Assembly: GCA_015956445.1 (NCBI GenBank)
Contig: WIUZ02000002.1
Span: forward strand, 1,054,001-1,118,000
From: Thelephora terrestris
Lineage: Eukaryota > Basidiomycota > Agaricomycetes > Thelephorales > Thelephoraceae
Direction: 5' to 3'
Length of the DNA: 64,000 bases
The first letter of the stretch is position 1. Each line of letters starts with the position of its first letter. Both the position numbers and the translations under genes were made by a program. Positions 8,245 to 51,423 of this stretch are shown piece after piece. The notes below the pieces were generated by a model, which ran no database searches, was not told where the DNA came from, and worked only from the letters and a program-made list of their open reading frames with translations.

Positions 8245-8561
8245 GGTGAAGGGAAGGAGACTATCCTACTTGCCCCTGGGTTGTTGGGGAGTGTCCAGCC
8301 GGGTTTGCGGAAGGCGAGGAAGTCGGTGCACGTGACCGCTCCGCCAGCGATGGTCACGAGCAACCGGCAATCCCCGGCCTCAACACTCATTCGCACTGGG
8401 CTGTCAAGAAACATCGTAAACGAGATCCATTACAACACACAAGGGAGCAAGTTATAGAACGGAATCGTGAGTATGGGGATAATAACAACAAGCTGTTCTA
8501 CAGGGTAGCAAAAATCGATCGTAAATGTAGATGGTTCGTAGATTGGGACCGGGCAACAACT
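8245..8561. other. short intergenic region
   Basis: About 320 bp holding the promoter of the zinc-finger gene and the 3' end of the next minus-strand gene. No further feature seen. Confidence 0.5.
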
Positions 8562-9414
8562 TTAGGCCAAGAGTACTCCCACAATTGCGGTGATAACACC
8601 GACGCTGAAGAAGCTAGCGGTGTTGACAACGCCACCGCTAGTGCCAAGACCACCGGTGGCAGAGGATGTGGGACTCGTGTTTGTCTGCGTCAAGCTAGAA
8701 AGGTGAGAGTTGACAGAGCTTATGACTGAAGAGAGGGAAGATAAGGAAGACGAAAGTCCGGAATTAGTCGACGTAGAGGATGTCGTAGAAGATGTCGTGG
8801 AGGATGTCGTGCTTGTGGACGTGGTTGGAATCGAAGCGCCGCTGAAAGTGGACGTTGGCGGGGAAGTCGACGTGACGGGAGGGAGGTCAGGGATAGAGGT
8901 CGAGGTGCCTGTGCATCCGCTGGATGGACCTGCACTGACGGTGATCACAGGAGTATCGCTGCCATGTCCGGCGGAATCGGCGAGAGTGATCACAACGCCA
9001 GTTCCCGCTGGAATCGTCACCAGACTCCAGGTGAACGTGGTACCGGTGATGTTTGTGAAAGCCGCGACAAGGGGACCACCTGCGCTACCGGTGTGGAAAG
9101 ACTAGAAGAGATGTGAGAATTCGAAGTCTGTAACGGGTCTCGTTGTACTAACAAGGCTGAATGGTGCTATAGTACCTTCGGTAAGCAAATATGAAGAAAG
9201 CGAAAACTGCGGGGACTCACGTGTTCCAGTCGTGGTGTCGTACGCGACGGTCAAGGGCGCACAGGCAGTTATGCTTGATCTACAGGGCAAAGAGCTGAGT
9301 ATGACAGGACGAGCGCTGATCGACCCAAAAGCCAATCACTGACGGAGGTACGATGTGGAACGCGCCCACGATGGAGGCCAAGAGAGAGAGCGCGGTGAAC
9401 ACGGCGAACTTCAT
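8562..9414 (-). CDS. secreted GPI-anchored Ser/Thr-rich protein (227 aa)
   Basis: Exons 9414-9344, 9279-9221, 9166-9153 (only 14 bp) and 9101-8562 join in frame. Residues 1-18 (MKFAVFTALSLLASIVGA) are a signal peptide. The core (SSITACAPLTVAYDTTTGT, then PPFSLSFHTGSAGG, then TFTWSLVTIPAGT) matches a family of small agaricomycete surface proteins with a beta-sandwich-like domain and a pair of Cys. A long Ser/Thr tract (TTSSTTSSTTSS) should be O-glycosylated. The last 18 residues are hydrophobic (FFSVGVITAIVGVLLA), as for GPI attachment. The micro-exon is supported because it restores the conserved PPFSL between two otherwise out-of-phase exons. Confidence 0.82.
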
Positions 9415-11765: not shown

Positions 11766-12281
11766 CTAAACCGGTTCCACCACATCTGATCTGAGAGACG
11801 AAATTCGGTCGGCACCTGGATTAATCGCGCCAAGGAGACCGAACGTACCGATTTCGGACCACCTCCCCATCCATGTCCACCACCCGAACAGTCGCCGTTT
11901 GGGTTGTCGAGAACGGTTGAGGCTTGGACACCCGTTCAAGGTCGGATTCCTCCCATCGGTGGGAAATACGGGAGTAAAAGTTCGATCCTGCCGGCGTCCT
12001 GGCGACGATTTGGCGGGGTCGTCAAGGATGGACGGCCAGTCCATCACTGTCCCGGCCCTCCGCGCAGGATAAGGGTTCGCTCTCGCAGTCAAGCGCCATG
12101 CGTGAACCCCAACTCCACATCTACTTCCGCAAGAAGCTGTACCGAAAGTCGTCAGAGATTTGGTGGAACGGGCGATTGAGAGAGGCGAGTGACTTACCGG
12201 GGTGTTGCGTGAGTCCTCGGTCCTGGGTCTGTGACTCGCAGGAAGGGAAAGGGAAGGTATAACCTTCATGATGGTAGTCAT
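11766..12281 (-). CDS. possible unrecognised gene start with TATA box
   Basis: A TATAAATA box (12372-12365) and a pyrimidine-rich leader precede ATG at 12281. Exon 1 could end at a perfect GTAAGT donor near 12196, followed by an acceptor near 12138 (reading LLAEVDVELGF). Further left, a coding-like stretch (SDLERVSKPQPF, TATVRVVDMDGEVV) ends at a GTACGT donor near 11846. The pieces are in different frames and I could not assemble one convincing product. An unspliced 171-codon frame also spans the region but has unusual composition. A promoter is likely; the product is unknown. Confidence 0.35.
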   Translation of the reverse strand: MTTIMKVIPSLSLPASHRPRTEDSRNTPVSHSPLSIARSTKSLTTFGTASCGSRCGVGVHAWRLTARANPYPARRAGTVMDWPSILDDPAKSSPGRRQDRTFTPVFPTDGRNPTLNGCPSLNRSRQPKRRLFGWWTWMGRWSEIGTFGLLGAINPGADRISSLRSDVVEPV

Positions 12282-12364
12282 AGAAGGCGAAGATGAGAGA
12301 AGAGATTCGCTGTTTAGAGTACGATTGGGTGGTTGGTGAGGATGAAGGCTGCCTCTCCAGGCCG

Positions 12365-12372
12365 TATTTATA
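12365..12372 (-). promoter_or_regulatory. TATA box
   Basis: TATAAATA on the minus strand, about 85 bp upstream of the ATG at 12281 and followed by a C/T-rich leader, as in highly expressed fungal genes. Confidence 0.5.
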
Positions 12373-13293
12373 GGAAAATCTGGGTGGGTCTGTCTGAGTC
12401 ATGAAGGAGGGGGGACGAGCATGGCTCTTAACCCCCTTGTTCGTCCGTGGCTGTCGTTTGTGTTCTCAAAGCCGCGACAAATCGTGGAGTAAAGTGAGAT
12501 CTGCAGTCGTTCCAATGGCCGAGCGTGACCGCAAAGCCACGGATGGACGGCGAAAAAAAGACGCCTGGAAGGGCCGAGCACGGCATTGACCACATCTATG
12601 GCCACGACCACCCACGGGTGACGCTACCACAGAACCATTTGTGATCCAGTGCACCAGAGATCGCGCACTGACAAATGGAAGGCCTGATCCGACTGCGAGC
12701 CTGGGCGGGAAACCGCGAGTACACGGTTTTGGGCCATCCACTGAGTGTCAAAGCAGTACCCGTGGCAGTTTCAGACACCCGATGCACGGGCTCAGGCAAG
12801 GACAAGACGTTATGGCCTCTCGTCGAACAACGGTTGTTTGGACCAGCTGGACCATTCGGCTTGGTATTGTTGGACAGTTATGACACGGTGGGAGGTTTCG
12901 GGTCCCCAGGGACATGGTAGGCAAGAAGTCTGGCTGAAAACCAGAAGACCGTGTCCGATTTGGGCGACCGAAGGCCCTGATGAATTCTAGCGAAGCATGG
13001 GATAGCCTCAGAGGCGAGTGCAAGGTCTTCAGATGAAATAACCTTCCGGTATGGAATGATTACGCTGCCAATCGATATTAAAGACTGTCCGGGATTGCGA
13101 AGAGACAAAGTGGTTCGCCAAAGACGGTGCGAGCGCGAGAGGAGGACTCTGCCGACTGTCTCCGCCAGCGCTGGGCGCTTCTACCAGAGTGACCGAGGTG
13201 TGACGTTACGCGACTTGCACGCGACGCGTCCTTCGACCCTAATTACACCTCCATCTTCATCTCTCCCACCGTCAAACTCACGGCCCACCAAAC
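12373..13293. other. intergenic region
   Basis: About 920 bp between the 12281 start (leftward) and RFC5 (rightward). Several overlapping short frames exist on both strands, none with recognisable content. The promoter of RFC5 must lie at the right end, where a C-rich, CATC-rich leader precedes ATG 13294. Confidence 0.4.
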
Positions 13294-14971
13294 ATGTCGC
13301 TCTGGGTAGACAAGGTCAGAGCCATCATTTATTCATCTCAGGCAACGAAAAACCTCACTGGTTTACAGTATCGCCCGAAAACACTCGACGAGTTGAGCTA
13401 TCACGAAGGTCTCACTACACGGATGCGTGCACTCGTGAGTAGCCGTACCTCCACGTCCTTGATCATCTCACCTGCGGATTTCGGGGTTCTATGGCACTGA
13501 CCTGGTGCATGGACAGGCAAACTCAGGTGATTTCCCCCACCTGCTCGTGTATGGACCATCGGGAGCGGGCAAGAAGACCAGAATAAGCTGCATCCTCCGA
13601 GAGCTGTTTGGAAAGGGTGTCGAGCGAGTAGGTCGCATGTCTCCGCTTTTCCACACAAAAGCTAATATCCAATGCATTCGCTTTCCGCGTTTAGTTAAAG
13701 ATCGACCAACGAGTATTCCTGACCCCCTCAAAACGCAAGCTGGACGTGAACATCGTTCAGAGCAACTACCACATCGAACTGACCCCGAGCGACGTCGGAA
13801 ATTACGATAGGGTCGTGATTCAGGATCTGCTGAAGGAGATTGCGCAGACGCAGCAGGTGGATCTGAATGCCAAGCAACGGTTCAAGGGTGCGTCCGTTCA
13901 GCTTCGCCACCGTGAGTGTCCCTCACTGACGGTGTAACCTTTTCTATCCAGTCGTCGTGATCAACGAAGCAGACTTACTCTCCCGAGATGCTCAAGCCGC
14001 GCTCCGTCGGACTATGGAAAAATTCATGTCGAATATGCGCATAATTCTCTGTGCGAACAGCACTTCGCGGTTGATCGCGCCTATCAAGAGCCGATGCTTG
14101 CTCATGCGGGTTGCGGCTCCTAGCCCTGAAGAAGTCGGTAGACCCGAACCCAAAGTTCCCTGGACGTCGCTGATAGACGTCACCAATTCTTAGATAAAAA
14201 CCGTTTTACAGCAGGTGGCCAAGAACGTCGGGTTCGATTTGCCGCCTGAAGCGTCCGAGAAAATTGCGGAGGACTCCAACGGGAATTTGAGGAAAGCGAC
14301 CTTGGTGTTGGAGGCACTGAAGATGCAGTCGTGAGTCTCACTCTCACTTGCAACCCACCCTATTTCTTCTCCGTCGCCTTTCCTATTTGTAATGCGATGT
14401 TTGAGTATTGATATGGGAACTTTTGCTGTGTATTAGGAAAGATCTTAACTCCCCATCGTTGACGATACCCAAACCCGATTGGGAGAGCTATTGTCACAAA
14501 GTAGCGGACTTGATCATGTCTGAACAAACACCGGCGAAGGTTATGGAGGTTCGGGGAAAGTTTTACGAGCTTCTGAGCCACTGCATACCCCCTACGGTCA
14601 TTCTCAAGGTTTGTCACTCACCTCGTCCTGATGGCTTCATGCTCAACCATCTCATTTCTTCTTCTGTAGACCGTCGCCGAAAGGCTCGTTGACCAAATGG
14701 ATGAGTCACTGAAAGCGGATGTGATGTACTGGGCAGCGTTCTACGAGCGCAGAATGAGAATGGGAAACAAGAAGATCTTCCACCTGGAGGCGTGGGTGAT
14801 AAAAGTTATGTGCCTATACAAGGTAATGTGGTTTCATTGTTGGACCCATGGGGCCTAGTGTCTGAGGGGTGGCCATCTAATCCTGTCGGCGCTTGACTGA
14901 TAATCGGCTTTGATCCCTTGTAGCATTATTTCTTTGACGTTGACATGGAGGATCTAAATGCTTTCGATTGA
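13294..14971 (+). CDS. RFC5: replication factor C small subunit (360 aa)
   Basis: Nine exons: 13294-13314, 13369-13434, 13517-13627, 13695-13887, 13952-14133, 14194-14330, 14437-14608, 14670-14822, 14924-14971; all junctions keep frame. It is the fungal RFC5 (human RFC3) type: MSLWVDK, YRPKTLDELSYHEGL, Walker A GPSGAGKKT at residues 42-50, Walker B-like VVVINEADLL with a degenerate acid pattern typical of this subunit, the RFC box RDAQAALRRTMEK, and KSRC. It helps load the PCNA sliding clamp onto primer-template DNA with RFC1-4 and takes part in checkpoint clamp loaders. Length fits the family. Exon 1 is only seven codons. An essential housekeeping gene, with no sign of damage. Confidence 0.95.
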
Positions 14972-34944: not shown

Positions 34945-36300
34945 AGAGCAAGATGGTGAGCAGCATGCTGCGTTGGCTTGGCACGGTCATACTTCAACTG
35001 GTTGCCCAAGAAGACATAGATCGGCCAAACTTTGGATGAAGCAAATTGACCAAGGCCTGTTGCATCTGAGGCAAGCATGATGGCAGCGATGGCTCGAGGT
35101 ACCTCTTGATCGGTTTCCGTAGGGTCTAGGGTAAGGAATTGAACTTTTGCGTTCTCATCAAGCCATGCCTGCGAGGTGTACAATTTGCCGTGCACTCGCT
35201 CCTCAGAATCTGATCCAGGGGGTGACCACTTGAACTCATATGGATGATGGTGGAACAAGTGGGGGCAGGGTCTGAGCTGAGCGTCTCGCGGATAATATCG
35301 CAAAACTCTCGATGCTGAAAGTCATGAATCGTTACAGGTACACCAGGAACCGGCCGTACTAGCGTTGCTGTTGATGGCTCTCCACTCTGCAACCGGGACT
35401 GTTCGGTTGCGGCCGCACGTTTCACCGCCTTCTTAACGCCGTTGGGGACGCGGATCGTGAGTGGTGTCTCGCGCCACCCGGAGCCTCCGGTTTGCCGCAA
35501 ATCCTTCTCGATTGCATCGAAATTGACCCCTTCCAGGTCAGAGGGATTGAATTCTTTATGGACGATGACGTCTCGTAAAGCATTGCGGTCCTTGCGAGAT
35601 TTTGATTCACTCGACGTCCGAAATTGGTGGTCAAAGAGGAAGGAACCGAGGTTGGGGTAAGGGTTGAGTATCTCCCTTAGTTTTCGACGTTTAGGAGGTG
35701 CGGGCATGGGCGTGGGTGCAGTTCCCTCCTCGAAAATCAATTTGGTCAGGTAGGGGATTGTCGACGGCTTGATTGGATAGAACCTCGATAAGCCAAACTT
35801 GTCAATGTTTGATCCAAGCGGCCGATTAGACGAGGGCAGGAGTGAACTTGGCGTGGAGGGCGTGGGGAGAGTCAGTGTTTCCGTAGTCATGACAGGGGAT
35901 TCTGGGTGAGGGTCCTCTGCAAGTTGTTTTCCTGGACCTTCCACATTGGGCGACGGACACGGGTGCCCCTTCGCAAAGATGAGGCCAACAGCTCTGGAGG
36001 TCTGCTCAATTCCTCTTCTTCAATCGCAAGGGACCGTAATTGGAAAACAAATTCTGTCTCTGTTGTCTATAGGGGGGTATTGGTCACCAGTTTGAACGTA
36101 AAGCGTCGATAATATGAATAAATTACCCCGAGCGGCATATCTGTCATAGGTATATCAGAGTCTGATGTTATTTCAGGCCGTTGCCCGTGGTCTTTGTGGT
36201 CGTTTCGGTGCAAGTACTACCCGATGGCTGTAAGACAGCCGGTCAGTGAAGTTCCGGTTCGAAGACGTAACATCACTTACCCCAGCAGGCGCATTATGGG
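34945..36300 (-). pseudogene. older transposase relic, left (downstream) half
   Basis: On the minus strand, 35944-35126 reads as a transposase-like region: NPYPNLGSFLFDHQF, DVIVHKEFNPSDLEGV, GWRETPLTIRVPNG, HDFQHREFCDI. A one-base frame change near 35250 leads into HPYEFKWSPP, VHGKLYTSQAWLDENAKVQ, AAIMLASDATGLGQFASSKV, WPIYVFLGNQLKYDRAKPTQ, which is the N-terminal half of a widespread basidiomycete Plavaka-like transposase. The gene stops short near 34945, so the catalytic part is gone. Upstream, RRGTRVRRPMWKVQEN (about 35960) is in another frame. Its N-terminal zinc-finger exon lies at 51436-51636, beyond the inserted 15-kb element. Confidence 0.75.
36293..36300 (+). repeat. 8-bp target-site duplication, left
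   Basis: ATTATGGG directly before the left terminal repeat; identical to 51416-51423. Confidence 0.92.
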
Positions 36301-36335
36301 AGGACCCCCGATAATTGGCGGGAGAGGTCCGACAC
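36301..36335 (+). repeat. 35-bp terminal inverted repeat, left
   Basis: Starts AGGACCCCCGATAATTGG and ends GGTCCGACAC; exact reverse complement of 51381-51415. Confidence 0.95.
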
Positions 36336-36340
36336 CGAGT

Positions 36341-36480
36341 TCGGACCAAATTCGAGGCCAAAACCCGCTGAGGTCTGTTTTTTCCCGGACCAAACTCGCT
36401 CCGAGCGCAAAAAATGCATGTTTTAACGTCCGGACCAATCGCCAGCCTTCCCGGGCTGCCGTGTATGTGATCCGGACCAA
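36341..36480 (+). repeat. subterminal repeats, left end
   Basis: Four copies of YCSGGACCAA or close variants at 36341-36350, 36384-36394, 36429-36438 and 36471-36480. The right end has three more in the same orientation. Such clusters bind the element's own proteins in CACTA-type transposons. Confidence 0.8.
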
Positions 36481-37069
36481 CCTCGGTCACGGCGGCTTGC
36501 TTCCCGGTACCTACGTTTCACATGTTTTCTGTCACGTAGTATCCCCATTGACTATCCTCCACGCTCATTCAATGGGCAATCCTATCAGAACACGGTCCCC
36601 ATTCGACATCACTGACTGGTATGGAAAACAATTCCCGAAAGACTGTTTCCAACATCCAGACCTCGAACTCTATTGCGACACTCTACGAACAATTCCGCCG
36701 CAATGCCCCGTCAATCACAGCATCATGCATCAACGTATCAATACAGTATATCAACGTTCACCCCCAGTGAGAAATCGCGCGAATGGGAACGAGCCGGGTT
36801 CATCACTGGCGAACCGGAACGAAACGTGGCAACCGGGATCTAGGCCATGCAACTCGGGTCTATCCGAAGTCGCGTGGACTTAATTAGTTCGCGCGAAGTT
36901 CAACTTCTTTAAGCTTCTCTAATTCATTTTGTACACTTAAAACATATCTTCGTGTTATCTGAATATTTGGCGTGAATTGAGATGATTTTTTTTCGAAAAT
37001 TCCTAAGTCCCTCCTTCGCTCTAAGCCTCCCATATCTCCCGGGAGCATATTGCCAACTCCCTTCCTCGA

Positions 37070-40000
37070 ATGTCCCTTGCCTTAGGTGGAGATGGGGACC
37101 CCTCGAAACTTCCTTGCAAGTGTGCGAAGTGTGCGCTTCACGGCGTAAGGTACCTTGCTAGACGGACGTGGTATAACCACAACCCAGGAGGAAAAAAAGC
37201 AAAACTTCCGAACCTTTCCCTACAAGAAATCGACCATATGATGGACCTCCCTGCCCCCAAGCGTACCAGAAGAGCTAAGAAGCGTTATGGAGAAGAAATC
37301 GTGCAGATGCGCGCACACATATCTAGCCGAATCGCGGGATCGAGCTCTGTACGTATCATATCAGATCAATATATGCGCTCTAGTTAAGTGATATTCATGA
37401 AATAATTTTTCCAGCGTGTTGAGAGACGTGAGACGACCCCAGAACTGCCCCAGTTTACCCGTCCGATGGATGGATCTCAATTTGAAGAGACTCACCCCCC
37501 TGCCGCCTTAAGCAACGAAAACGAGGAGACTGACCGAGATCGCCTTCGTTCTCCTTCTCCGGCTGGTGACAGAATGGAAGAAGACCTCCTTCCACCCCCT
37601 CTTACCCTCACAAGGAACGATGCAGATCCCCCAGATGATCAAGACGACCCTCCTCTCGATCCCGATCCCGGCGTACACCCTCCTCGCAATTTTGATTCTG
37701 ACGAAGATCCCCCACCTCCTGATTCTGATTCTGACGAAGGCGATCCTCCTTCTGACGAAGATCCTGGCGAAGCTGCTCCTCCTATTGACACTGGTCCTGG
37801 TGAGGACGACCCTCCGCTTGACTCTGATTCCGAGGAGGAGCCCCATATCACTTTGGATAAACTGAAGACCAGCTTCCAGTTTATCCAGATGGCCAAGGCA
37901 GCTACTCTGGAGTCCCAGTTCAGTCCGGCTGAACTCAGAACGCTTCGGGAGCCTCAGGAGGTCCATTTCTCTCCATCTGACGACCCAGATCTCCGGCTTT
38001 CCATCGACTTCTATATCTCGTCGCTGGATCACACTCAGTCCCAGAGGGCGTACTCTAAGGCTCAGTCTATTGTTCAGAGGACCTTCCCTAACTCGAACAT
38101 GCTTTCTTACGACCAAGTTAAACGGCGGGTTTCTGACCTCTCTGGGATTGTCACCTGGAAACACGACATGTGCTTCCATTCTTGCGTCGGCTTCACTGGG
38201 CCCTATGCGAACCTAGAGACGTGTCCTGACCGTCGTTGTCTCGAGCCACGCTACGACCAAGAGGAGCTTCGGAAATCTCATGGGAAGAAGAAAGTTCCTC
38301 GAAAGCAATTTACGACCTTCGCTCTTGGTCCGCAACTACAGGCTCGTCGGAGGAGCTCTGAGATGTCTCGCAAGATGTCCTACTGGTGCGAGAAGACTCG
38401 GGAGGAACGAGCTCGCAATCTGGATGCCGAGGACTATAGCTTCGACGACATCTTCTGCGGCTCAGATTATCTCGAGGCCGTTGAAAAGGGCGAAATCTCT
38501 GACGACGATATGGTCGTTATGTTCTCTATTGACGGCGCGCAACTCTATCGCAACAAAAAATCGGATTGCTGGATCTACATCTGGCTTATTCTGGATCTTG
38601 CGCCTGATCAGCGCTACAAAATTCGCAACATTCTGCCCGGGGGTGTTATTCCAGGTCCTGGGCATCCGAAAAATTTAGATTCCTTCCTTTTCCCTGGATT
38701 GGCGCATCTCTCTGCCCTTCAAAAGGAAGGCTTGCGCATATACGACGCATACCGCCGCAGGGTATACACCTCCCTGATCTTCTTCCTCCTCGCTCTTACA
38801 GATGCCATCGCTATGGCAGATCTCAGCGGCTCTGTTGGCCATCACGGCAAGAGAGGCTGCCGTCTTCTCTGCGAGCTCATCGGGCGAAATAAACTGGGTG
38901 GCCCACACTACTATCCAGCTTTACTCCGACCCCATGATGACCCGGACGATCCAGATCCAGATCCGGAACGCACTCATCCGGACGTCAAAATCTCGAACCT
39001 TCCCTTGGTGGATCCACTCAAATATCGCGCAAATTTGAAGAAGGTCATCACTTCGCGGACCAATGCGGACTATCGAGAGAACCGACTCGACACTGGTATC
39101 AGGAAGGCCAGTCTATTTGATTGCCTCTCCCGTAGCCTCAAACCGCCAACTTGTTTTCCTGGCGACATCATGCATCAGCCGGTTATAAATCTTACGGCTC
39201 TGATGTTCGATCTCTGGTGCGATCGCGAAGGCTGTCGTAAGGCGGATCCTGATGGTGTCTGGGACTGGGCCGTTCTAAATGGAGATGTTTGGAAGACCCA
39301 TGGAAAGAAGGTTGCGGACGCTGCGGTTTATTTCCCTCGTTCCTTCGACCGAACCCCTCGGAATCCGGCGAAGAAGATCTCAAGTGGCTATAAGGCCTGG
39401 GAACTGCTCCTCTATTTCTACGGCCTAGGACCCGGTCTCTTTTATGGAATTATTCCAGAGAAGTATTATCGACACTACTGTAAGCTAGTCATCGGTATTC
39501 GAATTATCTACCAACGCCGGATCTCACGCCAACAACTCCAACTCGCCCACAAACTTCTTCTCGAGTGGGTCCTCGAATTCGAACTTCTGTATTATCAACG
39601 GAAGATCGAGCGCCTTCATTTTGTTCGGCAGTGTGTCCACTCGGTGACTCATCTCGGCCCTGAAACTGCCCGACTAGGACCACCTTCGCTTTCGGCCCAG
39701 TGGACCATGGAGCGCGTCATCGGAATTTTCGGCTCGCTTATCAAACAGCCGTCCAATCCGTTTGCAAATCTTACGGAACAGGCCAAGAAGGTTGCAGAAA
39801 TCAATTCCCTTGTTGCCATCTGGCCGGAACTCGAACCCAAGACGAGTGACCCCCACGGATCGATTGACATTGGCCAAGGATATCTCTTGCTGGGTCCCAA
39901 AGATGAGAAGCCCTATGACGTCCCTCAAGTTGAACAAGACGCCCTCGGAATGTTTTACTCCAGCATCCCAAATCGTGGATCCACCCCTCCAAAATCTATT

Positions 40001-40483
40001 TACCGATGGGGAAGACTCCGGATTCCAACTGAACAGGTTGCGCGTTCTTATTGGAAAGAGGAAGTCCGCTCGTCTAGAAGGGCATGTACCGATCGAAATC
40101 TTAAGGTACGCGAGCTTACTTCATTCGCGTCTGGGTTTTGATCTGCACTAACGTAAATCCCACAGGTTCTCCATCAAGGTGCCGTTCGTATTGCCGAGGC
40201 AAGATATTACTTCCGCACAGACATTGCTGGAGTTCGGGAGACCCTCGCCGTTTGTTCCCTCTACTCCCCCGCCAATGAACGACTTAACCGAGAGACGTAC
40301 GGTGCCCTCAATGTATTTGAATACAAGGGTGAGGGTAGTTTAATCATTATTCGAGCGACGTCCATCATCTCAGTTGTAACGATGGTACCATTTGGTGAAC
40401 AAGTTCAGGGACGTTCTACCTTCTTTTTTTTAGTAGAAAAATTTGCACTAGGCGTAGTTGATACAGGTGTAATTTTAGAGTAG
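37070..40483 (+). CDS. Tnp2-type (CACTA-like) transposase (1095 aa)
   Basis: Exons 37070-37348, 37415-40105 and 40166-40483 join in frame to 1095 residues. N-terminus: Cys-rich finger (CKCAKCALHG) and basic stretch. Residues about 125-245 are Asp/Pro-rich and acidic. The core from about 455 matches the transposase family Tnp2: SIDGAQLYRNKKSDCWIYI, ILPGGVIPGPGHPKNLDSFL, HHGKRGCRL, GGPHYYPALLRP, FPGDIMHQPVINL, ISSGYKAWELLLYFYGLGP, HFVRQCVHSVTHL, SAQWTMERVIG. The last exon (VCSLYSPANERL, RSTFFFLVEKFAL) fits the known C-terminus. Reaction: cutting and joining at the element's terminal repeats. No break seen. Confidence 0.92.
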
Positions 40484-40666
40484 GGCAAGGATATACAGGA
40501 TAGCTGGTGTACCGTGATTTAATGTATTTTGATCGGAGTAGATACACTTCGCCTCGGTTAGATCAGATAAGCCCGATCGGACTCCGTGTTTCTGCGTCCG
40601 TTCGCCCAATTTTTTTCTCTTTTTCTCTTTTCTCAGCTTTTCTTCCTACCACCACCTTCTTCCAGG

Positions 40667-43087
40667 ATGCCATCGTCTCCGCCCATTTTTTCCAGCGACT
40701 TTGAGATCGGAGTTAGCTCGGATGCTCTCTCGGCCTCATCCCACCTATCTGCTCGGAACACAGGGTTCCTGCCGCTCTCGGATATGGGCCCGCCAAGCCA
40801 AAACAATCCTCGCGAATTTGGCGGGTTTTTTTCCCCTCCAGGTGGCGATCCTATGCGCTCCCAGCAAATGTTCATGGGATCTAGCTCTGTACGTACTCTA
40901 TGTTCCCTCTGGTTGATATTCTATATCTTTAAAAGCGTCCGGGATCTTATCACGGCCCTCCCTACACCCAAACGACCCCATACGACCACGTTTCTCGCAT
41001 GAGTGTTCCGTTTGAAGAGTTCACAAGGGTGCGCAACGATCGTGATTTCTGGCGCACCAAATACCACGAGTTAAAGTGAGTTCTCCTGCCGCATATATGC
41101 TATCATATAGCTTCATTTGTCGAATATATGCGCATAATTATTGACTATATGCGCCTATTTTAACTTGTATATCGCACTAACTTAACAAAACTACATCTAG
41201 GAGTACCCACGACACTGTCATGGAGAATATCATCGACAACGTCGCCGATATCTCCAAGAAAATCTCCGCTCGGATCATAGCGTCACAAACGACCCCCGAA
41301 GTGAAGACCCTCGATGATCCCGACGCCCCCATGACGATATCCATCGCATCTGATTCATCTGGAACCTCCGACCCACCTCGGCCATCGTCGCTGTCCACCC
41401 CAAAATACACCCGACAGCCACTTCCCCAGCTTGACCCGGCAACATACCCACTTGTCAATCACTGGGGAAACGATGGTTACAACGGGAACCGAAAGGGTGG
41501 GAAGAGGGGTGGTGAGGATACCCTCGAGGAGAAGGCGCCGAAGACCTCCGTCTTGTCCAGTTTCATGGAAGACGAAACCGGGAGGGAGATTCCTGAGAAG
41601 GTTAGGAAAGCCGCGCGCAAGACGGCTAAACAATTTTTCCAGGAGATCCTTGACAGCAACCGCGCTCCCGCCAACTGGGGAGAAGCTCCCCGCGACATCG
41701 AAAATGAGCTCGTCCACATCCTGGAGAGCGAATTTTTTTGGCTCCGACTCTGCGAGGGTCACTGGAAAGCCATCAAAGTGGCTACCAACAGCTACTCCCA
41801 GTGGCACCGCAAGGCTCTATTGCGTAAGGCCGCTGCCGAAGCTAAGAAGACAGCAGCCATGAGAAGGGCTGAGGCAGAGGTAATTGACGTCGACACCGAT
41901 GACGCCGATGAAACCAGGACCTCCAAACGTCCCAGGGACGAAGAGGAGGAGGCTGCAGGACGTCAGAAACGTCATCGCATTGACGAGCCTCAACCCACCC
42001 CTCGACCTCGCCCCACAGTAGTCCAGCCCAATGTTCCACGCAAACAGGTATGAGTGTCGTTTTTTATAGACTGTATTTGCTGCTAATACCACCTGCTAGA
42101 ATATCTTGTACGAATTTATGGGTATATGTGCGAGTGAAGTCACGTACTGACTCCATCTGCACAGTGACAAGATGAAACTTACGCCGGCCGTAGAAATGAT
42201 TCCGTTGACTCAGGTATGTGATTCTGGGGTCGTCTGTATGGTTCAATTGATTTCCCTGCCTCAAGGTTGTCTCGGAAGACAATCTACGCCCGTCTGCTTC
42301 TGGTCTCTCCCGGCGTGCATCCGACCATCCTCCCGCTTCGCTTGACTCTGCACCTGTTCCTGCCCCCCTCGAAACCTCTCTTGCACTTGCTGCTGCTATC
42401 GCTGCTGGTCCATCTGAACCACCTGTCCTCGGTCCTGCATCTAATCCTACGCCTGTCTCTGTTGCTGCGCCGACACCTGTTGTTGCTCCTGTCTCTGTTT
42501 CTGTGCCGGCATCTGTTTCTGCGACTGCTCTTGTTCTTGAGCCTCTCCCAACGACTCCCCTCGAACGTTCTGACCCACCTGCTGCTCAGGTCAACCCTGG
42601 TAAAGCCCCTAGCCCTGCGAAAAAAACTCCGGCTCTTCTTCTCGCCCCAATGGAAGACTCTGCCGGCCCCTCTGCCTCTGGTTCCGGCCTTGCTGATAAC
42701 TCGGACGTTCAGCAAGACACTCAAGTTGCTCAGACGGCTCCGAAGAAGAAGGCAAAGGCGGCCCCAAAGAAGGCAAAGGCGGCCCCAAAGAAGGCTCCCG
42801 TGAAGAAGAAATTCAAGAAACTCACTGGAAAGTATGTTGTATTCTTATATTTTCTTCATTCACCACGCTTACATCTATTCCAGGGAATTATTCTACGGCG
42901 ATTGGAAGGCAGCCAATCCTCAAAAAGAACAGGTAGACTTCGAGAACGCCTGGAAGGCTGGCAGGCCGGTTGACCGCAAGGTATGTCACGAATCCCTTTG
43001 TATGTTATCTTATCCATCAGTAAACGTGGCGAGGATTTTATTTCACGGTTGTCTGTGCTTATTTAGCAAATAAGCATAGATAACTAG
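40667..43087 (+). CDS. transposon accessory protein, disordered, Lys/Ala-rich tail (649 aa)
   Basis: Eight exons: 40667-40888, 40936-41075, 41201-42047, 42100-42107 (8 bp), 42165-42213, 42266-42831, 42884-42980, 43067-43087. The sum is exactly 650 codons. Ser/Pro-rich start, FTRVRNDRDFWRTKYHELK, an acidic middle, a helical block around 265-330 (ARKTAKQFFQEILDS, HILESEFFWLRLCEGHWKA), a basic KRPRDEEEEAAGRQKRHR nuclear-signal-like stretch, then Ala/Pro/Val repeats and KKAKAAPKKAKAAPKK. No family recognised. The layout recalls the DNA-binding partner (TnpA-like) of CACTA elements, which binds subterminal repeats, but that is inference. The last exon choice is less certain; reading through its donor adds a different tail. 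Confidence 0.75.
42100..42107 (+). other. 8-bp micro-exon
   Basis: AATATCTT between TAG and GTACGA. It is the only piece found that connects phase 0 after codon 403 with the phase of the 42165 exon, giving RKQ-NIFDKMKLTP. Without it the next exon begins with an in-frame stop. Confidence 0.55.
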
Positions 43088-43101
43088 ATTATATAACCTA
43101 G

Positions 43102-43125
43102 GTCGAGATTTTGTATAATCTCGAC
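43102..43125. terminator. hairpin between convergent genes
   Basis: A 9-bp stem, GTCGAGATT / AATCTCGAC, with a 6-base loop, located between the ends of two convergent transposon genes (43087 and 43328), in AT-rich sequence. Possible 3'-end or transcription-collision structure. Confidence 0.35.
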
Positions 43126-43327
43126 ACATCTTATGTGTGTTTGACAGTTTATTTTTTCGAGCAAGTTACGCGGCGAAATAAGATTGATTAAAGCTCGAAC
43201 TAAAATGTGACTAAGTTATGGTAAACGAGGGAGGTAATCGACGATGCAACCGAGAATAAGTGTCGAACAATTTGTGTTTAAGTGCGGGCGGCTAACGACA
43301 GGGAATCAGATCTATGGCTACATGGAA

Positions 43328-45375
43328 CTAGACGGGAGGCGGGGTGGGGGGATCGTCGGAAAGCAACGGCTCGTACTCTTCCTCTACAACGGCTCCTACT
43401 TCGTTCTGGAACTCGTGAGCGCGGGCCTCCTGGACTTGGTAGAGGCCTTCAAATATCCCATTCCAATTGTCGTCCGTGAGGTTCTTGATCTTCGCGAGGT
43501 ACATGTTGGTAGCTTTGATCCAGTTGGTTGTAGAAAACTCAGCCGTAAATGAGGTCAAGTCACCAGAGCGGTGCAAGAAATACCCGCGTTCAACCTGGGA
43601 GATGGTGAGCATGGTGCAGTCAGAGTGGAATAGAACTTACAGCGGCAGCTGCCATAGCAAGCGCGCCAACCGGGCGCCCAGCATCTTCAGATGGGAGTCG
43701 CATGTGAATCCCGGCTGACGTGAAATACGTCCAGAAAGCGCGAAGGACTGGGGGGGATTGGAACGGGCCACGGCGTTTCTGTTGCTCAAACATTAGTAGC
43801 AGCGCAGTATGCGGGGAGGGAGAACATACCTCGTCGTAGTAATTCTCTTCGCCGCGAGGAATTTCGATGGTCCCGGGGCGGAAATATTCCCAGATGAACG
43901 GTTTTTGAGAAGAGTCGAGAAGAGTTTGGACATAGGCTCCCCTTGCCGCCTTCGAGTCCAGCATTCGTTTGTTGTACTGGGTAGGGAGGTACTTGATGAC
44001 AGCAGCGAGGGCATCAGAACCGATTTGGTTCCGAAGCACACCGAGCTCGCGGTTGGTCTGTGAAGTGAGAAAATGTGAGAAAATTGAGAAGCTCGATAGC
44101 TCGGGATATTTTACCGGGAGAACTACCGCATCATCCGGATGGATTTGGAATGGGAGGTCCGGGTAGATAATGCTAAACTCTTTCTGATAAACAGGGCAAA
44201 GGGGGTTACTCCATGGCAACTTGTCATAGAAAACAATCTTCATGATGTGCCGAATGAATATGTTTCGAAATTCGAGTTTCAGGTCAAAGGGTAGGTCCTT
44301 CAGTCCTGGAGTCTGAAGATTGCCAGCCTCGTCTCTGAATCTCCTTGGCATTGAGTAAACCTAGAAATTCTTATTAGAGATGATCGCGGGAAGGGAAAGT
44401 GCCTTACTGCCTGCTGGGGCTGAGGAATTGCTTGCTGGAACTGTTGTAGATTGTTGGCGGCTTGGTGGTTTTGCGTATTGAATTGGAATGGGAAAGGCGG
44501 TTGACCAATAAAGGGTGTGGCAGCATCCGACACAGGGATCATAGGACCCATGTTCGACATGATCGGGAACACGTCCTGTTGCCAAGGAGTTGTCAACGGC
44601 GATGGAGGAACCTGGGGCGACGACGACGACGATGACATTGTGAGCATTGGAGCATGCCAGGAGTTTGCCAACGGCGATGGACTAGGAAGCTGAGATGACG
44701 ACGACGACGACGACATCGCGAGCATTGGAGCATGCCAGGGGTTTACCAACGGCGATGGACTAGGAAGCTGAGATGACGACGATGGTGTCGAGAGTGTTGG
44801 AGTGGATGACCGGCTGAGAGGCATGCTCGTCTTCGTGAGGGCCTGGGGCCAATTACTTATGAGGCCAGAGGGCTTGTTGCGGACTGTCGGGCGCACATCG
44901 TGAAATGAACTGAACCCTTTGGTACGTTTCAGAGCCCTGGTTGACAAAACCGATCAGATGGTAGTTCGTGGAGGTATTTGATTGACTTACCGGGGATTAT
45001 AAGAGCTCAAGGGGACTCTTTTCCCACCGACGAGTATGAACTCCTCGTTGTCGGCCTCAGTTGGGGCCTCAGACCCGATAACAAGGTGGTCCACGTCCTC
45101 GGGGCTGCTATCTCTTGTGAACTGAATGACAGGATGGATCAGTGGAGGGAATATGAGAAGAAAGAGTCACTTACCAATGGATCCTGTGAGATAGCAACGG
45201 CGTCATCCGGCTGCTCGAAGGCGGCCAAACGTGCCTCAAGAGCACGGATTTTGTCGTCCTTTGTCGCTTTCTTTTGTCGCTTTGTGGTTGGTATTCCGGC
45301 CCTGATCTTGGCAGCTGTAGTCATAACGGGTGCTGCTGGGTGGGTGTCCTTGTTCTTCGCTCGGGTTCCGGCCAT
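43328..45375 (-). CDS. transposon-borne DUF6532-like protein (579 aa)
   Basis: Seven exons: 45375-45175, 45121-44991, 44936-44408, 44360-44115, 44057-43830, 43778-43641, 43594-43328; all keep frame, giving 579 residues. N-terminus: basic coiled-coil-like KRQKKATKDDKIRALEARL. Residues about 130-280 are Ser/Pro-rich with three near-identical repeats (PSPLxNxWHAPMLxMSSSSS). The C-terminal half is globular: LRNQIGSDALAAVIKYLP, ARGAYVQTLLDSSQKPFIW, FQSPPVLRAFWTYF, RPVGALAMAAAAVERGYFLH. This resembles DUF6532, an agaricomycete domain often seen next to transposases; function unknown. Convergent with the 649-aa gene, divergent from the Plavaka gene. It appears undamaged. Confidence 0.8.
44590..44800 (-). 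repeat. coding tandem repeat (about 90 bp x 2-3)
   Basis: Two to three near-copies of a unit encoding SSSQLPSPSPLxNxWHAPMLxM within the 579-aa gene; (GAC/GAT)n runs of 4-6 triplets are part of it. It may vary in length between copies of the element. Confidence 0.65.
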
Positions 45376-46237
45376 GATAGAGAGGGAGAGAGTCTAAAGA
45401 GCAACACAAAGGCGGCAGAAGGGCAGAGTGGGAGAAATAAAAAGATTAAAACGAGTGAGATGAGACAATGCGAGAGATTGAATGAGGAGTGAGAGCGCAT
45501 ACCTGTCCTGTTTTATAGGTCCAGAGAAATTCAAAGCGGCATGCTCGGATGCAGAGTGGTCGGGGTCGGGGCACAATGCGCATGTCCTTCCCTTCCTCAA
45601 GGACAGTACACGTACTCAAAAAGTCCACGCCCCTGCGAGCCGACTGGTTAGAACGAGCGAGTAGTCCCATGAGGACTTCCTGCAAGGCATCAGTGATGCT
45701 GTGGGTTTCAGTTGCTTGGAAAATTGGGGTCGGAAAAGCTGATGTGGGTCGTATTGCAAAGGCTGATGTGTTTTGTGTCGAGGAGGCCAAACCGGTTGGC
45801 GTTGATAAAATCACAGTGATTGGCATCGGTGGAATTGGACAAGTCGGCATTGAAAGAACCGATGGAGCTGGTGCCGGGAAAGCCAGCACGGCTAGCATGG
45901 AGGGGATAGATGGAGTTGAAATTGGAGGAATCGGAGGAGTTAGTAGCGAAGGAATTGGTGCAGTTGGGATCGGGAAAGCTGGCACGATGGGTGCAGGGTG
46001 AGCCAACGTGGCCGTTGACGGAATAGGGGGTTCGGACCTTGGATGTCGTATAGGGTGGAAGGACGGGCCCGATGGCGAGAGAATTAGGCCTGGGTCGGTC
46101 GAGAGAGTCCGGCCTGGGTCGGTGTCAGAGGAGTCAAAGTCAGAGGATGAGAACTTGTGAAAATTTCGCCAAGTCCCACGCTGGCAACACCCTGCCACGT
46201 CGTTTCCCTCCCCACCTCCTCTCGCGGTTCCACTTTG
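45376..46237. other. divergent promoter region inside the element
   Basis: Lies between the 579-aa gene (leftward) and the Plavaka gene (rightward). A minus-strand frame (46252-45446) encodes a Pro/Ile/Ser-rich repeat-like stretch; in a second frame it ends with CALCPDPDHSASEH, which resembles a zinc knuckle. This may be an unspliced extra gene or low-complexity sequence. I could not choose. Confidence 0.35.
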
Positions 46238-49200
46238 ATGGAGGCCCTCCATCTCCCTTTTTTTATTTGCGACAAGTGTGGTAAGGTCTGCAGATCCCTC
46301 CGTGGGTTAACTCAACATAAATCTGTCCATCGGGTCCTCCCCCAGCTCGGCAATTGCAACCCCCACAACTTCCATCGCGAATTCCATCCTCTGCTCAACG
46401 GTGAGATCCACTTTTATCTATTAATTCTCTACGCTCACAGGATTCCTAAAGGATTGCCCTGTGACCACCGCGGCTGTTTTCTTCCACTGGGGGCACCGCC
46501 AGTGCCACCTCCACCACAGTCAGAGGACGACTGGACTCCATTCGCATCGCGAGCAGGCTTCGAACTCGCGAATATCTTGTACCTCAAAGCACACCTCTCC
46601 CAAAGCATCATCAATGATCTCCTCGACGTCTGGAGTGCTACACTCGTACCCCATGGAGATCTCGCCCCCATCACCAGTCATCGAGACCTCCACTCCCAGA
46701 TCGACGCCGTTGATCTCGGGAACGTCCCGTGGAGATCATACACAGCCCAATATCAGTGGCTCCGCCCCGAGAATGGTCCAGTGCCAGAATGGATGGGAAC
46801 CAAGTACCAGATCTGGTTTCGCGACCCCAGAAAGGTTGTTCACAACATCCTTGCAAACCCCGAGTTTGTATCTGGCATCGACTACGTCCCACATCAAGAT
46901 TTTCAGGATGGAGAGCGACAATACCGGGACCTCATGAGTGGGACATGGGTCTGGGAACAATGTGTAGGTTGTTTATGCGGTGGTTCCGAAGCTTGCTGAC
47001 AATCCATTGACAGGATATCATTGCGACAGACCCCACAACACATGGGGCGATGTTCGTTCCCATTGTCCTTGGCACCGACAAGACAACCGTCTCGGTTGCG
47101 ACCGGCCAGCAGGTTTACCACCCCGTCTACCTCTCGGTTGGGAACGTCCACAACCGCATCCGACGGGCACACAAGCACGCCCTTGTCTTAATTGGCTTTC
47201 TTCCAATCCCTAAAGGTGCCGCAACTTCAATGCTTCTATTTTCAACTAACCCAGCCCCGCAGGTTCCCGCGAGGACTGGAAGAGTGAATTATTCCGTGAC
47301 TTCCGCCGTCGTCTCTTCCATGGGAGTCTCACGGTTATGAACGAACCACTCAAACGTTACATGACAACATGGGATGTTGTTCGATGCGCCGACAAGCATT
47401 TCCGCCGTGCCATATATGGAATCGGGCCGTATATCGCGGACTACCCTGAGCAATCAACTGCTGCGGGGACTGTGTATGGATGGTGCGTATTGTTCGTGCT
47501 CCTCCTACCATCACGTCTGCATGCGATTAAATACCTCTTCAGGTGTGAGGCTGATCCCAAGGACCTTGATGGCTTACCCACTGAGCTCCGCACCCTCGCG
47601 CGACTCCTGAGACTCATCGACACACAAGATGAAGATACCCTGTGGTTTGGCCACGGAATCGTCCCAAATTTTTTGGCATGTCCCGCATTACCACCCATCT
47701 TGAACGCTCATTAACGATTGACCCCAGCCGTTCACTGCTAAGTTCCCACGGGCGGATATCTATGAGCTCCTCACCCCAGACCTCCTCCACCAGGCCATCA
47801 AGGGGACGTTCAAGGACCACCTTGTTTCCTGGGTGGAGGAATACCTCAAGCTCGTACACGGACCATCTCAGGGATCGGAGATTCTCGACGAGATTGATCG
47901 AAGGTTTGCTTCGATCTTTAATTTGTTCCCAAATCGTCGCTCAACCTCTTTTTAGAATTGCTCTAGTACCCCTATTTCCTGGCCTGCGTAGATTCAAACA
48001 GGGGCGTAATTTCCAGCAATGGACTGGAAACGACTCAAAAGCGTTCATGAAGGTTGTTAGTTTGAAGTCTGATAAGACTTCCATGCTGATCTCCAACAGG
48101 TCTTCGTCACTTCCCTCGAAGGCTTCGTTGCCATCGACATCATCAAGACTCTCACGGCATTCATGGACTTTTGTTACATCGCGCGACTGGACACCATCAC
48201 CGAGACTGCTCTCGATGCTCTCGACGATTCCCTCAGGAGGTTCCACCACCACCGCAAGATCTTTCAAGAAAGCGGCGTACGCCCAACAGGATTCTCACTC
48301 CCCCGCCAACATGCACTGACCCACTACCGTTACCATATCGAGAAGTTCGGAGCACCAAACGGGTTGTCGTCCTCGATCACCGAGTCAAAGCACATCACCG
48401 CCGTCAAAAAACCGTGGCGCCAGTCAAACCGTTACAACGCTCTCGGTCAAATGCTCACCACCAACTCCCGGAATGATAAACTCGCTGCTGCCCGTGTTGA
48501 CTTCTCTACCCGTGGAATGTTGAACGGCACTTGCCTTGGAGATGCGCTAGAGAGGCTTCGCAATCTCCCTGAGGACACTGCTGGTGGTGATGACGATACA
48601 GAGGATGATTCAGACAGTGATGGTGACAACGGCCAAGACCTTGACGCCGACGAAGATGAGGAGGCGACAGGTCCAGTTGACGGACCTCCCACGCTGAGCG
48701 AGGTTACCCTTGCACTGAAACCAGGTAAGGGTTTTATTTCTTCATGCACAACAATTTCTGACGACGTCACAGCTCCCGGATATCCTCTTATTTCATTCCA
48801 GGAACTTGGCCGACATATCAAGCAAGAGAACCTTGAATCCCTCGTCCGGATCTTCCTGTTTTATCAACAGAACCCCACCTTCGCCGGAACCCCTCCAATC
48901 ACTGCCTGTCCGACCGTCGAGTACGCCGACCAGATATCTGTCTTCCACTCCGCCAAGGCCGTCTTTTGCGCCCCAGGTAATCATTCCAGCATCGAGGAGC
49001 TGTACCGCGAAACCATCAGATCCACCCCAAGGTGGCAAACAAGTGGTATAACGGCGCCCCGCCGGGATTGCATCCTCATCGCCACTGGGTCAGATGAGGC
49101 TGGTACAAGGGGCCTGGATGTCGCGAGGGTGCATTTGTTCTTCTCGTTCGTGTTCAAGGGCGAACTATTTCAATGCGCTCTTGTCCACGAGTTCTGCAAG

Positions 49201-49449
49201 AGTTTTGCCGACCCAGACCTGGACAACGGTCTATGGATCTTCGAACCAGACTACGCTGAAGATGCCGGACCCAGGATCATGTCCGTCATACACATCGATT
49301 CCATCGTCCGTGCTGCACATCTATTGCCCGTCTTTGGTGGCGACACTCCCATCCCAAGGGAAATAAACTTCACCAACACTCTCGATGCATTCAGGGCTTT
49401 CTATCTAAACAAGTATATTGACTATCACGCCTTTCAAACCCTGTCGTAG
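46238..49449 (+). CDS. Plavaka-type transposase (934 aa)
   Basis: Nine exons: 46238-46400, 46452-46963, 47014-47215, 47263-47482, 47543-47675, 47728-47903, 47956-48052, 48100-48724, 48773-49449; all keep frame to 934 residues. A classic C2H2 finger is at residues 11-31 (CDKC ... HKSVH). The Plavaka core follows: DDWTPFASRAGFELANILYL, DLMSGTWVWEQ, TDPTTHGAMFVPIVLGTDKT, VSVATGQQVYHPVYLSVGNV, RAHKHALVLIGFLPIPK, PRADIYELLTPDLLHQAIKG, FQQWTGNDSKAFMKVF, LPRQHALTHYRYHIEKFGAP, SITESKHITAVKKPWRQSN. Intron 5 has a GC donor (GCATGT...CCCCAG), forced by homology on both sides. An upstream in-frame ATG at 46157 would add 27 residues. No stop or frame break: probably active. Confidence 0.9.
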
Positions 49450-49633
49450 TATGTTTTTTGTGACTGATTGATATGAATGTTATTTTCTTGTTATCGAACA
49501 TCTTATTTCGGTGATCGAACGTCTTATTTCGGTGGAACTGATGACCAGTAATTGAGTGTCAAATAACCTCAAATAACTCGGACAATATTAAATAATCGAA
49601 ATAAGATGGAATAACCAAACGCCTCTTTTACTG

Positions 49634-49825
49634 ATGTCTGACGCCGACTTCGATCAGATGTATAATGCACGCGCGCGTGAACTTGTAAGTCACAATTATA
49701 TTCTTAACTAATTGCGATGTCTATCTAACGAAACCTTCCAACAGAATGACGACCGGGAGCAATACGAGAAAGAAGAGGCTGAGAAGGAACAGGCCGAAAA
49801 GGAACAGGCCGAGAAAGAGACTTAG
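49634..49825 (+). CDS. spliced micro-gene in the element (43 aa)
   Basis: Exon 49634-49684 (MSDADFDQMYNARAREL), a 60-bp intron GTAAGT...CAG with a CTAAC branch-like site, and exon 49745-49825, NDDREQYEKEEAEKEQ followed by two AEKEQ repeats and a stop. The product is acidic/basic and almost surely one helix or coiled coil. Good splice sites and a clean stop favour a real gene, but its shortness and repeats leave room for a chance frame. No known family. Confidence 0.45.
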
Positions 49826-50199
49826 ATGTGTTGTTGTGTCCGTCGCGAGAGGGACTGGGTATGGTGTGGTATGGGGACGGAAGGAAATTAGATATCAGTA
49901 GACCCGCATTGAACGTCACCGTCTTTAGATCCAAATAGAAATTGTTCGCTCTCGCTAGATCCCGGTGTGAATTCGAGATCTATTTGGATCTATTCAAATC
50001 TAACCGTACAAACGAGTCCATTAAATATTGCTACGATTAGAAACTAATAGAACAAATCTAAGGAATGAGCCATTTGCGCGAGCCAGGACAACCGTTATCC
50101 AATCTGGTCAACTACCCGATCAAATTCGAACGGGTTCGCCCGGGTTCGACCGGTTTCTCACTGGGGTTCACCCCCCATTCAAATTTTCCTTTCTTCCAC
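49826..50199 (+). other. short non-coding stretch with an inverted repeat
   Basis: A 13-bp inverted repeat AGATCCAAATAGA / TCTATTTGGATCT at 49927-49939 and 49979-49991 could fold into a hairpin. No convincing exon was found. Confidence 0.4.
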
Positions 50200-51232
50200 T
50201 TTCCCCTCACACAGCCACTCCCTCGTGCTCGAGGCCGCAAGCCAGTGCAATCCCGCAACAGAAATCACTGCCACTCTTGTCAGGAGGGATATACCTCCTC
50301 GCAAATTTATCCAAGACCTGACGTCAGAATTCGGCCAAGCCATCCTCAACCGTCAAAGGAGCATCAGCGATCCTCTGTACGACCGGTCTTTTCTACCCTT
50401 CTGGGTCCTCACCCTATGGGAGCGTTTGGCAGAGCTGAATTCTGCGAGGGAGAAATGGGCGCTAGCGCAGATGTGGCTCCAGAAATCATCGCAATCTCTG
50501 GCCCTAGCAATGTCCACTACCGCTAAGCAACATCCCACCCAAACCGGGTGGGGTGCCGATATCACGGTTGGCCGAGAACGTGCAACGACGTTGGCGTTAC
50601 CTCAACTACTTGCAGACGCTGCTCCGTCACTCAGGGTTCTCGCGAGTCCCGCTTCCGAAACCGCATGGTTTTATCTTAAAGGATGCCGGGATTACACCCC
50701 TTAACAAGCTTCGATGTCTCGAAAACCCCTCAGGCCCCTTCGAGGAGTCAAGTTGGGCGTTTGTATTTGTTGGAGACACAATCTACATTGCTCGAGGTAT
50801 GTCTTGTCGCACAAACGAGTCAAACTGTACTTAGCATTGGCAATAGTCCTCATCTTTTACCAAAAAGGTGGCGGAAAGAACGGGCGACATGGGTGGATCC
50901 TGTATACTCCAAATGTCCACAGCGTGTCGAACGTCGGTGTCCAGCTTTTCGAGTACGCCTACCTCCGGATGTTCCGTGCAGTTCACGAGGCCGATGCGCT
51001 CCTCCAGACCAAGTGCCATAAACTTATACCAGCACGCCAACTCCTCACTGTCCTTCAGAAAACACCGCGCGCACCGCTGGGGGCTGATATCGAGATCAGC
51101 GAGGAAGATTGCGTTGTTTTTCACCTTCTAAAGACGAACGTGTCTCAGACTGGCCTCGCACTCAAGTTCATCAACAGCCGTAAAGCGAAAAAACTTGCAG
51201 GCGTCGATCAGGGGGCTGTAGAACAGGCTTAG
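50200..51232 (+). pseudogene. transposon accessory gene, apparently frame-broken
   Basis: Coding-like from about 50210 in one frame (VLEAASQCNPATEITATL, RRDIPPRKFIQDLTSEFGQ, FLPFWVLTLWERLAELNSA, WALAQMWLQKSS). It continues in another frame from about 50550 (RLAENVQRRWRYLNYLQTLL, PLPKPHGFILKDAGITPLN, SSWAFVFVGDTIYIAR to 50796), then splices in frame (intron 50797-50867) to 50868-51232 (HGWILYTPNVHSVSNVGVQL, EYAYLRMFRAVHEADALL, ending GAVEQA). No donor and acceptor explain the frame change near 50510-50550, and no start codon is clear. The WVLTLWERLAEL part recalls large accessory proteins of basidiomycete CACTA-like and Helitron elements. Function unknown. Confidence 0.5.
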
Positions 51233-51280
51233 ACAAAAAACGAAAGAAATTTCAATTTTTTATACTATCTATGTTACCAT

Positions 51281-51357
51281 TCCGGACCAAATTTCCGTCC
51301 ACCCATGACTCAATGTTCGATCCGGACCAGATGAGCACACAACATGTCCGGACCAAA
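51281..51357 (+). repeat. subterminal repeats, right end
   Basis: TCCGGACCAA at 51281-51290, TCCGGACCAG at 51321-51330 and TCCGGACCAAA at 51347-51357, in the same orientation as those at the left end. Confidence 0.8.
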
Positions 51358-51380
51358 TTTTTCAAAAACCAGGTGATTTT

Positions 51381-51415
51381 GTGTCGGACCTCTCCCGCCA
51401 ATTATCGGGGGTCCT
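51381..51415 (-). repeat. 35-bp terminal inverted repeat, right
   Basis: Exact reverse complement of 36301-36335. Confidence 0.95.
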
Positions 51416-51423
51416 ATTATGGG
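51416..51423 (+). repeat. 8-bp target-site duplication, right
   Basis: ATTATGGG directly after the right terminal repeat; identical to 36293-36300. Confidence 0.92.

Follow-up and report, generated by a model that had tools for sequence, protein, structure and literature searches.

The subject of this study is a segment of a 64,000-nucleotide window of Thelephora terrestris DNA (contig WIUZ02000002.1, positions 1,054,001 to 1,118,000), in which positions 36293..51423 are almost certainly occupied by three cut-and-paste DNA transposons nested one in another, each with ends and a target duplication of its own. All three end pairs and their duplications, of 8, 7 and 2 bp, were read directly in the window and recomputed. 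In the scenario that we propose, a non-autonomous P-superfamily element with 35-bp ends, an 8-bp duplication, an Ulp1-protease-like gene and no transposase, would have inserted first; a Tnp2-type element would then have landed in the Ulp1-protease-like gene, duplicating 7 bp, and a PlavakaB element would have entered the Tnp2 element last, duplicating 2 bp. Each transposase would work on its own ends, with the 8 bp assigned to the P-type ends, the 7 bp to the Tnp2 ends and the 2 bp to the Plavaka ends, and the Tnp2 and Plavaka proteins would have made neither the 35-bp ends nor the 8-bp duplication. PlavakaB and the nesting of transposons are already known.

When we compared the two extremities of this 15.1-kb stretch, positions 36301-36335 and 51381-51415 (minus strand) proved complementary at 35 of 35 bases, and the flanking 8-bp duplication ATTATGGG was found at 36293..36300 and 51416..51423. 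The original prediction, made from the letters alone, had announced both of these features as well as subterminal repeats, which are indeed present as CGGACCA at four sites on the left (36342, 36386, 36431 and 36473) and three on the right (51283, 51323 and 51349). These repeats (36342-36479 and 51283-51355) have the same orientation at both ends instead of pointing inward, a uniformity that could let a transposase distinguish the two ends of the element. We searched the genome (40.6 Mb in 60 contigs, numbered with C below) with a 30-base pattern of the outer end, allowing up to 3 mismatches, and obtained nine matches against none for the reversed control, which shows that the 35-bp end is not a product of chance. 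The nine matches form four complete pairs and one single end, and a perfect 8-bp duplication flanks all four pairs, whereas no duplication is seen around a fifth pair on C23, which is worn (2 and 5 mismatches). The outer element itself is split into a left piece (36301..36762, plus strand), which matches family copies on C6, C58 and C13, and a right piece (50166..51415, plus strand), and its remaining length (36301-36762 plus 50166-51415) is 1,705 bp by arithmetic.

The second layer is a Tnp2-type element on the plus strand (36763..50165), with ends CCCAGTGAGAAA..TTTCTCACTGGG and other copies on C6, C2, C4, C1 and C58. It is bounded by the 7-bp duplication GTTCACC at 36756..36762 and 50166..50172, and it measures 6,779 bp by arithmetic after subtraction of the inner Plavaka element and of one TC. 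Its main open frame of 911 codons (37406..40141, plus strand) encodes a Tnp2-type transposase, and the Pfam domain Transposase_21 was recognized in the open reading frame (ORF) 37466-40141 with 36.6 bits (cut-off 28.6). A further open frame (41181..42053, plus strand), also present in the C2 copy, is probably a second gene of the element, to which no function is assigned. When the homologue P0003 was aligned with the locus, its residues 1-116 matched the outer element to the left of the Tnp2 insertion and residues 93-247 matched it to the right; the Tnp2 element therefore lies inside the Ulp1-like gene. The first piece of that gene, cut by the insertion, occupies 36461..36755 (plus strand), and the remaining pieces lie within 50174..51018 (plus strand; matches 50174-50629, 50733-50828 and 50815-51018). 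The left match continues as far as 36805, taking in about 40 bases of the Tnp2 element.

The innermost layer is a PlavakaB element of 6,622 bp on the plus strand (43015..49636), with ends CATCAGTAAA..TTTACTGATG and a 2-bp duplication TC at 43013..43014 and 49637..49638. Its transposase gene (46151..49449, plus strand) comprises the open frames 46151-46999, 47337-47714 and 48076-49449, and the Plavaka domain PF18759 was detected in ORFs 46157-46999 and 47337-47714 with 85 and 63 bits (cut-off 26.3). Minus-strand open frames are also present (43620..44947), in a stretch much of which is about 70% similar in other Plavaka copies. The limits of the element are fixed by its empty site: all five Plavaka-free Tnp2 copies, on C6, C2, C1, C4 and C58, have the sequence TTATCTGACG, while in the window Plavaka stands between TTATC and TCTGACG. 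The inner element accordingly runs from 43015 to 49636 and has a 2-bp TC duplication. Read by eye, this insertion, next to the second gene of the Tnp2 element, is enclosed by GTATGT and a downstream CAG and possibly sits in an intron. In a whole-genome comparison with the 15.1-kb stretch as query, for which 38 of 122 candidates were scored, so that copy counts are lower bounds, query positions 6721-13344 matched C45:1994367-2000990 (L009) end to end, with no adjoining Tnp2 sequence. Over 6,624 positions, the C45 copy departs from the window once, at the base with which the element starts (A in C45, C here). Duplications of related Plavaka copies are TA (C60) and GGG or GG (C58). In the parts of Kojima 2025 (PMC12730594) that treat it, PlavakaB is given CATCA..TGATG ends and 2- or 3-bp duplications; the inner element shares the Plavaka transposase domain, the CATCA..TGATG ends and a 2-bp duplication, and differs in nothing essential, although a TET/JBP gene was not specifically searched for.

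Copy-to-copy identity climbs inwards, from 91-95% for the outer element to 99.1-99.8% for Tnp2 and 99.985% for Plavaka. This gradient fits insertion of the outer element first, of Tnp2 next and of Plavaka last, even though it does not date the insertion here; beyond what the nesting itself requires, this order in time is a probable one.

The superfamily of the outer element was approached through its relatives. P-superfamily elements make 8-bp target duplications, a length that the outer element shares. In the full-length relatives of the outer family, whose ends are of like kind, a P-type transposase is accompanied by an adjoining Ulp1-like gene; this transposase has the fold of the Drosophila P element (PDB 6p5a). 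Six full-length relatives having both end motifs carry an 8-bp duplication, but this end test, run on eight stretches, sought only pairs with an 8-bp repeat, so that misses cannot be counted, and 3 of the 56 pairings in its cross-pair control were hits as well. Better evidence comes from listing the AGGACCC/GGGTCCT motifs of the relatives, with the reservation that it includes internal copies of the motif that are not element ends. In the Pfam scan of the P-type alignment A2 all matches were weak, among them PF21787 (TNP-like RNaseH), which 4 of the 40 members matched with a best E of 0.047. A PDB sequence search with A2 found no match and the NCBIfam scan gave nothing useful. A THAP-type DNA-binding domain is a trait of the P superfamily; in those portions of the relatives' N-terminal exons that were scanned, no domain appeared. 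By its relatives, the outer element is classed as a non-autonomous member of the P superfamily; it differs from the P element in lacking a transposase and, like its relatives, in carrying the Ulp1-protease-like gene, and a P-type transposase of these relatives would have moved it in trans. The P-type copy on C59 (L069, C59:1712001-1722000, minus strand) shares 99.66% identity with the C5 copy across 4.1 kb but is broken by about 2.9 kb within its transposase gene.

The outer element, with its ends of the AGGACCCCCGATAATTGG type, might instead belong to Zisupton/KDZ or to hAT, an assignment that we regard as unlikely. The 8-bp duplication alone is not diagnostic, since the portions of Kojima 2025 dealing with these groups (PMC12730594) give 8 bp for Zisupton and usually 8 bp for hAT, and this genome abounds in KDZ transposase domains, with 125 PF18758 matches. 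Zisupton/KDZ was tried as a candidate for the outer layer and rejected, as none of the 125 matches, compared by eye, falls in the eight stretches on which the end test of the relatives was run.

The nest could also have been built elsewhere and then moved here as a 15-kb unit by a P-type transposase acting on the outer ends, an accidental composite. Intact outer ends and a perfect 8-bp duplication are equally compatible with a late and an early move; however, only one copy of the whole nest was found among the candidates scored, and the outer family is the oldest layer by copy divergence, which does not date its insertion here. We consider a late move of the whole unit very improbable. The original prediction favored one unit, possibly an undescribed composite superfamily member. 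That a single transposon delimited by the 35-bp ends owns both the Tnp2 and the Plavaka transposase, and that these jointly made the 8-bp duplication, has practically no chance of being right, for although the outer ends and their duplication are perfect and both genes are enclosed, with Pfam domains above their cut-offs, the inner ends carry duplications of their own around both transposases, Tnp2 copies without Plavaka and a Plavaka copy without Tnp2 exist, the other three complete outer copies (1,300, 1,296 and 761 bp), all with intact ends, match neither gene, and a Plavaka match lies within 15 kb at only 4 Tnp2 places (44 Tnp2 and 64 Plavaka places in hand-merged lists, both lower bounds). 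These four are the window itself, C1:675996 and C59:1769731, where Plavaka lies outside the Tnp2 ends, and C59:1159857, which is a fragment.

We thus return to three nested elements. A recent nesting whose inner ends could not be found had been offered as the other possibility, and nesting is indeed what we see; however, the inner ends can be located, at 36763/50165 with the 7-bp GTTCACC and at 43015/49636 with the 2-bp TC, the layers are three, and the outer one carries neither transposase. Both observations that the original prediction had named as fatal to a composite were made, namely inner terminal repeats with target duplications around either transposase and copies with the same ends that lack the genes. 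The claim of a composite superfamily falls, the nesting of transposons being ordinary, and the locus illustrates that perfect outer ends are no proof that the DNA they enclose is one element. To call the two transposases unrelated was also too strong, as EnSpm and Plavaka are grouped in one CMCT clade in the relevant portion of Kojima 2025 (PMC12730594).

Several observations weigh against our interpretation. Of the empty sites that had been proposed as a check, the Plavaka site is clear, whereas the other two insertions yielded no clean one: for the outer element, the joined flanks match just the two flanks at the locus in the genome search, and for the Tnp2 element, the outer copies on C6 and C58 lack the whole surrounding stretch. 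The lone C45 Plavaka copy has no clear 2-bp duplication, in addition to its different first base. No transposase domain was found in the outer element (four pieces scanned) and no P0135-like match at the outer-type copies; the same Pfam scan gave nothing above cut-off, a match to a wall kinase at 0.0077 on one piece being taken as chance. No P-type element turned up whose ends are almost the same as the outer element's, and the outer Ulp1-like gene (P0003 as query) is just 21-26% identical to the genes of the full-length relatives. Finally, the label of that gene is itself open to question. Its open frame, as read from the C6 copy, has 13 protein-database matches, one of them from the same species; when ten of the 13 were aligned, eight matched the Ulp1 protease family weakly (best E 0.026, below the curated cut-off), and a PDB sequence search with this alignment, A1, found no match. 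The name 'Ulp1-like' is tentative because the matches lie under the Pfam cut-off.

The length of a target duplication corresponds to the spacing of the cuts that a transposase makes on the two target strands, and it is used to sort superfamilies. When we examined the 11 Tnp2 elements with readable end pairs, we found that all of them are flanked by a perfect 7-bp duplication, whereas mismatched pairings of their ends gave none in 110. These pairs bracket the Tnp2 gene in the window and at C6, C2:806808, C1, C58:697704, C58:1262702, C5, C23, C10, C2:1398157 and C59, and they represent 11 of the 44 merged Tnp2 places, the others having no readable end pair of the patterns searched. The 28 single Tnp2-family ends that we fetched (20 and 8) included 12 that formed six pairs and 16 that were partnerless; the C4 copy is unpaired. 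The sampled genes span a wide range of identity to the Tnp2 gene of the window, from 100% (C6 and C2:806808) through 80% (C1), 76-83% (C58:697704) and 72% (C58:1262702) to the more distant 65% (C10), 61% (C5) and 56% (C23, C2:1398157 and C59). Ends in this family are CCCAGTG..CACTGGG, of the CCCAGTGA type, and the duplication begins directly outside them. The 7-bp length would be set by the Tnp2 protein rather than by some other product that the element encodes.

The duplicated bases themselves follow a pattern, as all 11 read NNTNANN, with T in third and A in fifth place, and G or C stands between them in ten. This T and A occur together in 5.2% of the 7-mers of the window, which gives a binomial P of about 1e-14 before counting the 336 choices of column and base. 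In a held-out check on 17 unpaired ends, nine fitted and eight did not. Three of the fitting ends may not be independent, since L065 shares its flank with a paired end and the 7 bases of L055 and L066 are identical to those of the C23 and C59 elements. The misfits comprise L052, L056 and L057, whose own terminus is not CCCAGTG, L050, and four ends belonging to one duplicated unit, L048 (C45:9887), L049 (C45:87469), L047 (C12:1504851) and L058 (C50:5209). The outside 40 bases of these four are nearly the same, which indicates a single end copied within a larger duplicated unit.

In the portions of Kojima 2025 on these groups (PMC12730594), the CMCT clade (EnSpm, Plavaka and relatives) is given 2-5 bp duplications and mostly CA..TG ends, and 7-bp duplications are given for Kyakuja and hAT7. 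The Tnp2 elements resemble EnSpm/CACTA in their Tnp2 (Transposase_21) transposase, above the curated cut-off, and in their short terminal inverted repeats. In contrast, their 7-bp NNTNANN duplications and CCCAGTG..CACTGGG ends correspond neither to the 2-5 bp duplication nor to the 5'-CA..TG-3' ends. Kyakuja (KDZ) elements share the 7-bp duplication (Kojima 2025, section 3.2.1, PMC12730594), but they have no inverted-repeat ends, which the Tnp2 elements do have. Kyakuja/KDZ was rejected as a candidate for the Tnp2 layer, since none of the 125 PF18758 matches lies in the 11 Tnp2 intervals (by eye). Searches of the open-access literature, made mostly through titles and the beginnings of abstracts and with Repbase outside their scope, turned up no report of a 7-bp Tnp2/EnSpm duplication, and the portions consulted of Repbase Update 2015 (PMC4455052) and of the Marasmius oreades papers (PMC9674265 and PMC8290104) do not mention 7-bp Tnp2 elements. 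If true, a 7-bp Tnp2 lineage would widen the known range of EnSpm/CACTA duplications past 2-5 bp, and a 7-bp Tnp2 clade with an NNTSANN target poses a testable question about its transposase. Likewise, the P-type elements with an Ulp1-like gene may provide a mobilizer for those orphan elements of mushroom genomes that have 8-bp duplications and AGGACCC ends. We regard as evenly balanced the joint proposition that P-superfamily elements of mushrooms have a conserved Ulp1-like gene next to them and that there is a Tnp2 lineage with a 7-bp stagger, a palindromic NNTSANN target and CCCAGTG ends.

The Tnp2 copy on C4 (L012 and L014; C4:912378-925809) holds two insertions of its own, of about 0.35 kb and 6.4 kb. 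Both have the ends TGTTGAACC..CTGCTCAACA, lie in opposite orientation and show apparent 5-bp flanking repeats (ggacg and caggg); they are probably a solo long terminal repeat (LTR) and an LTR retrotransposon.

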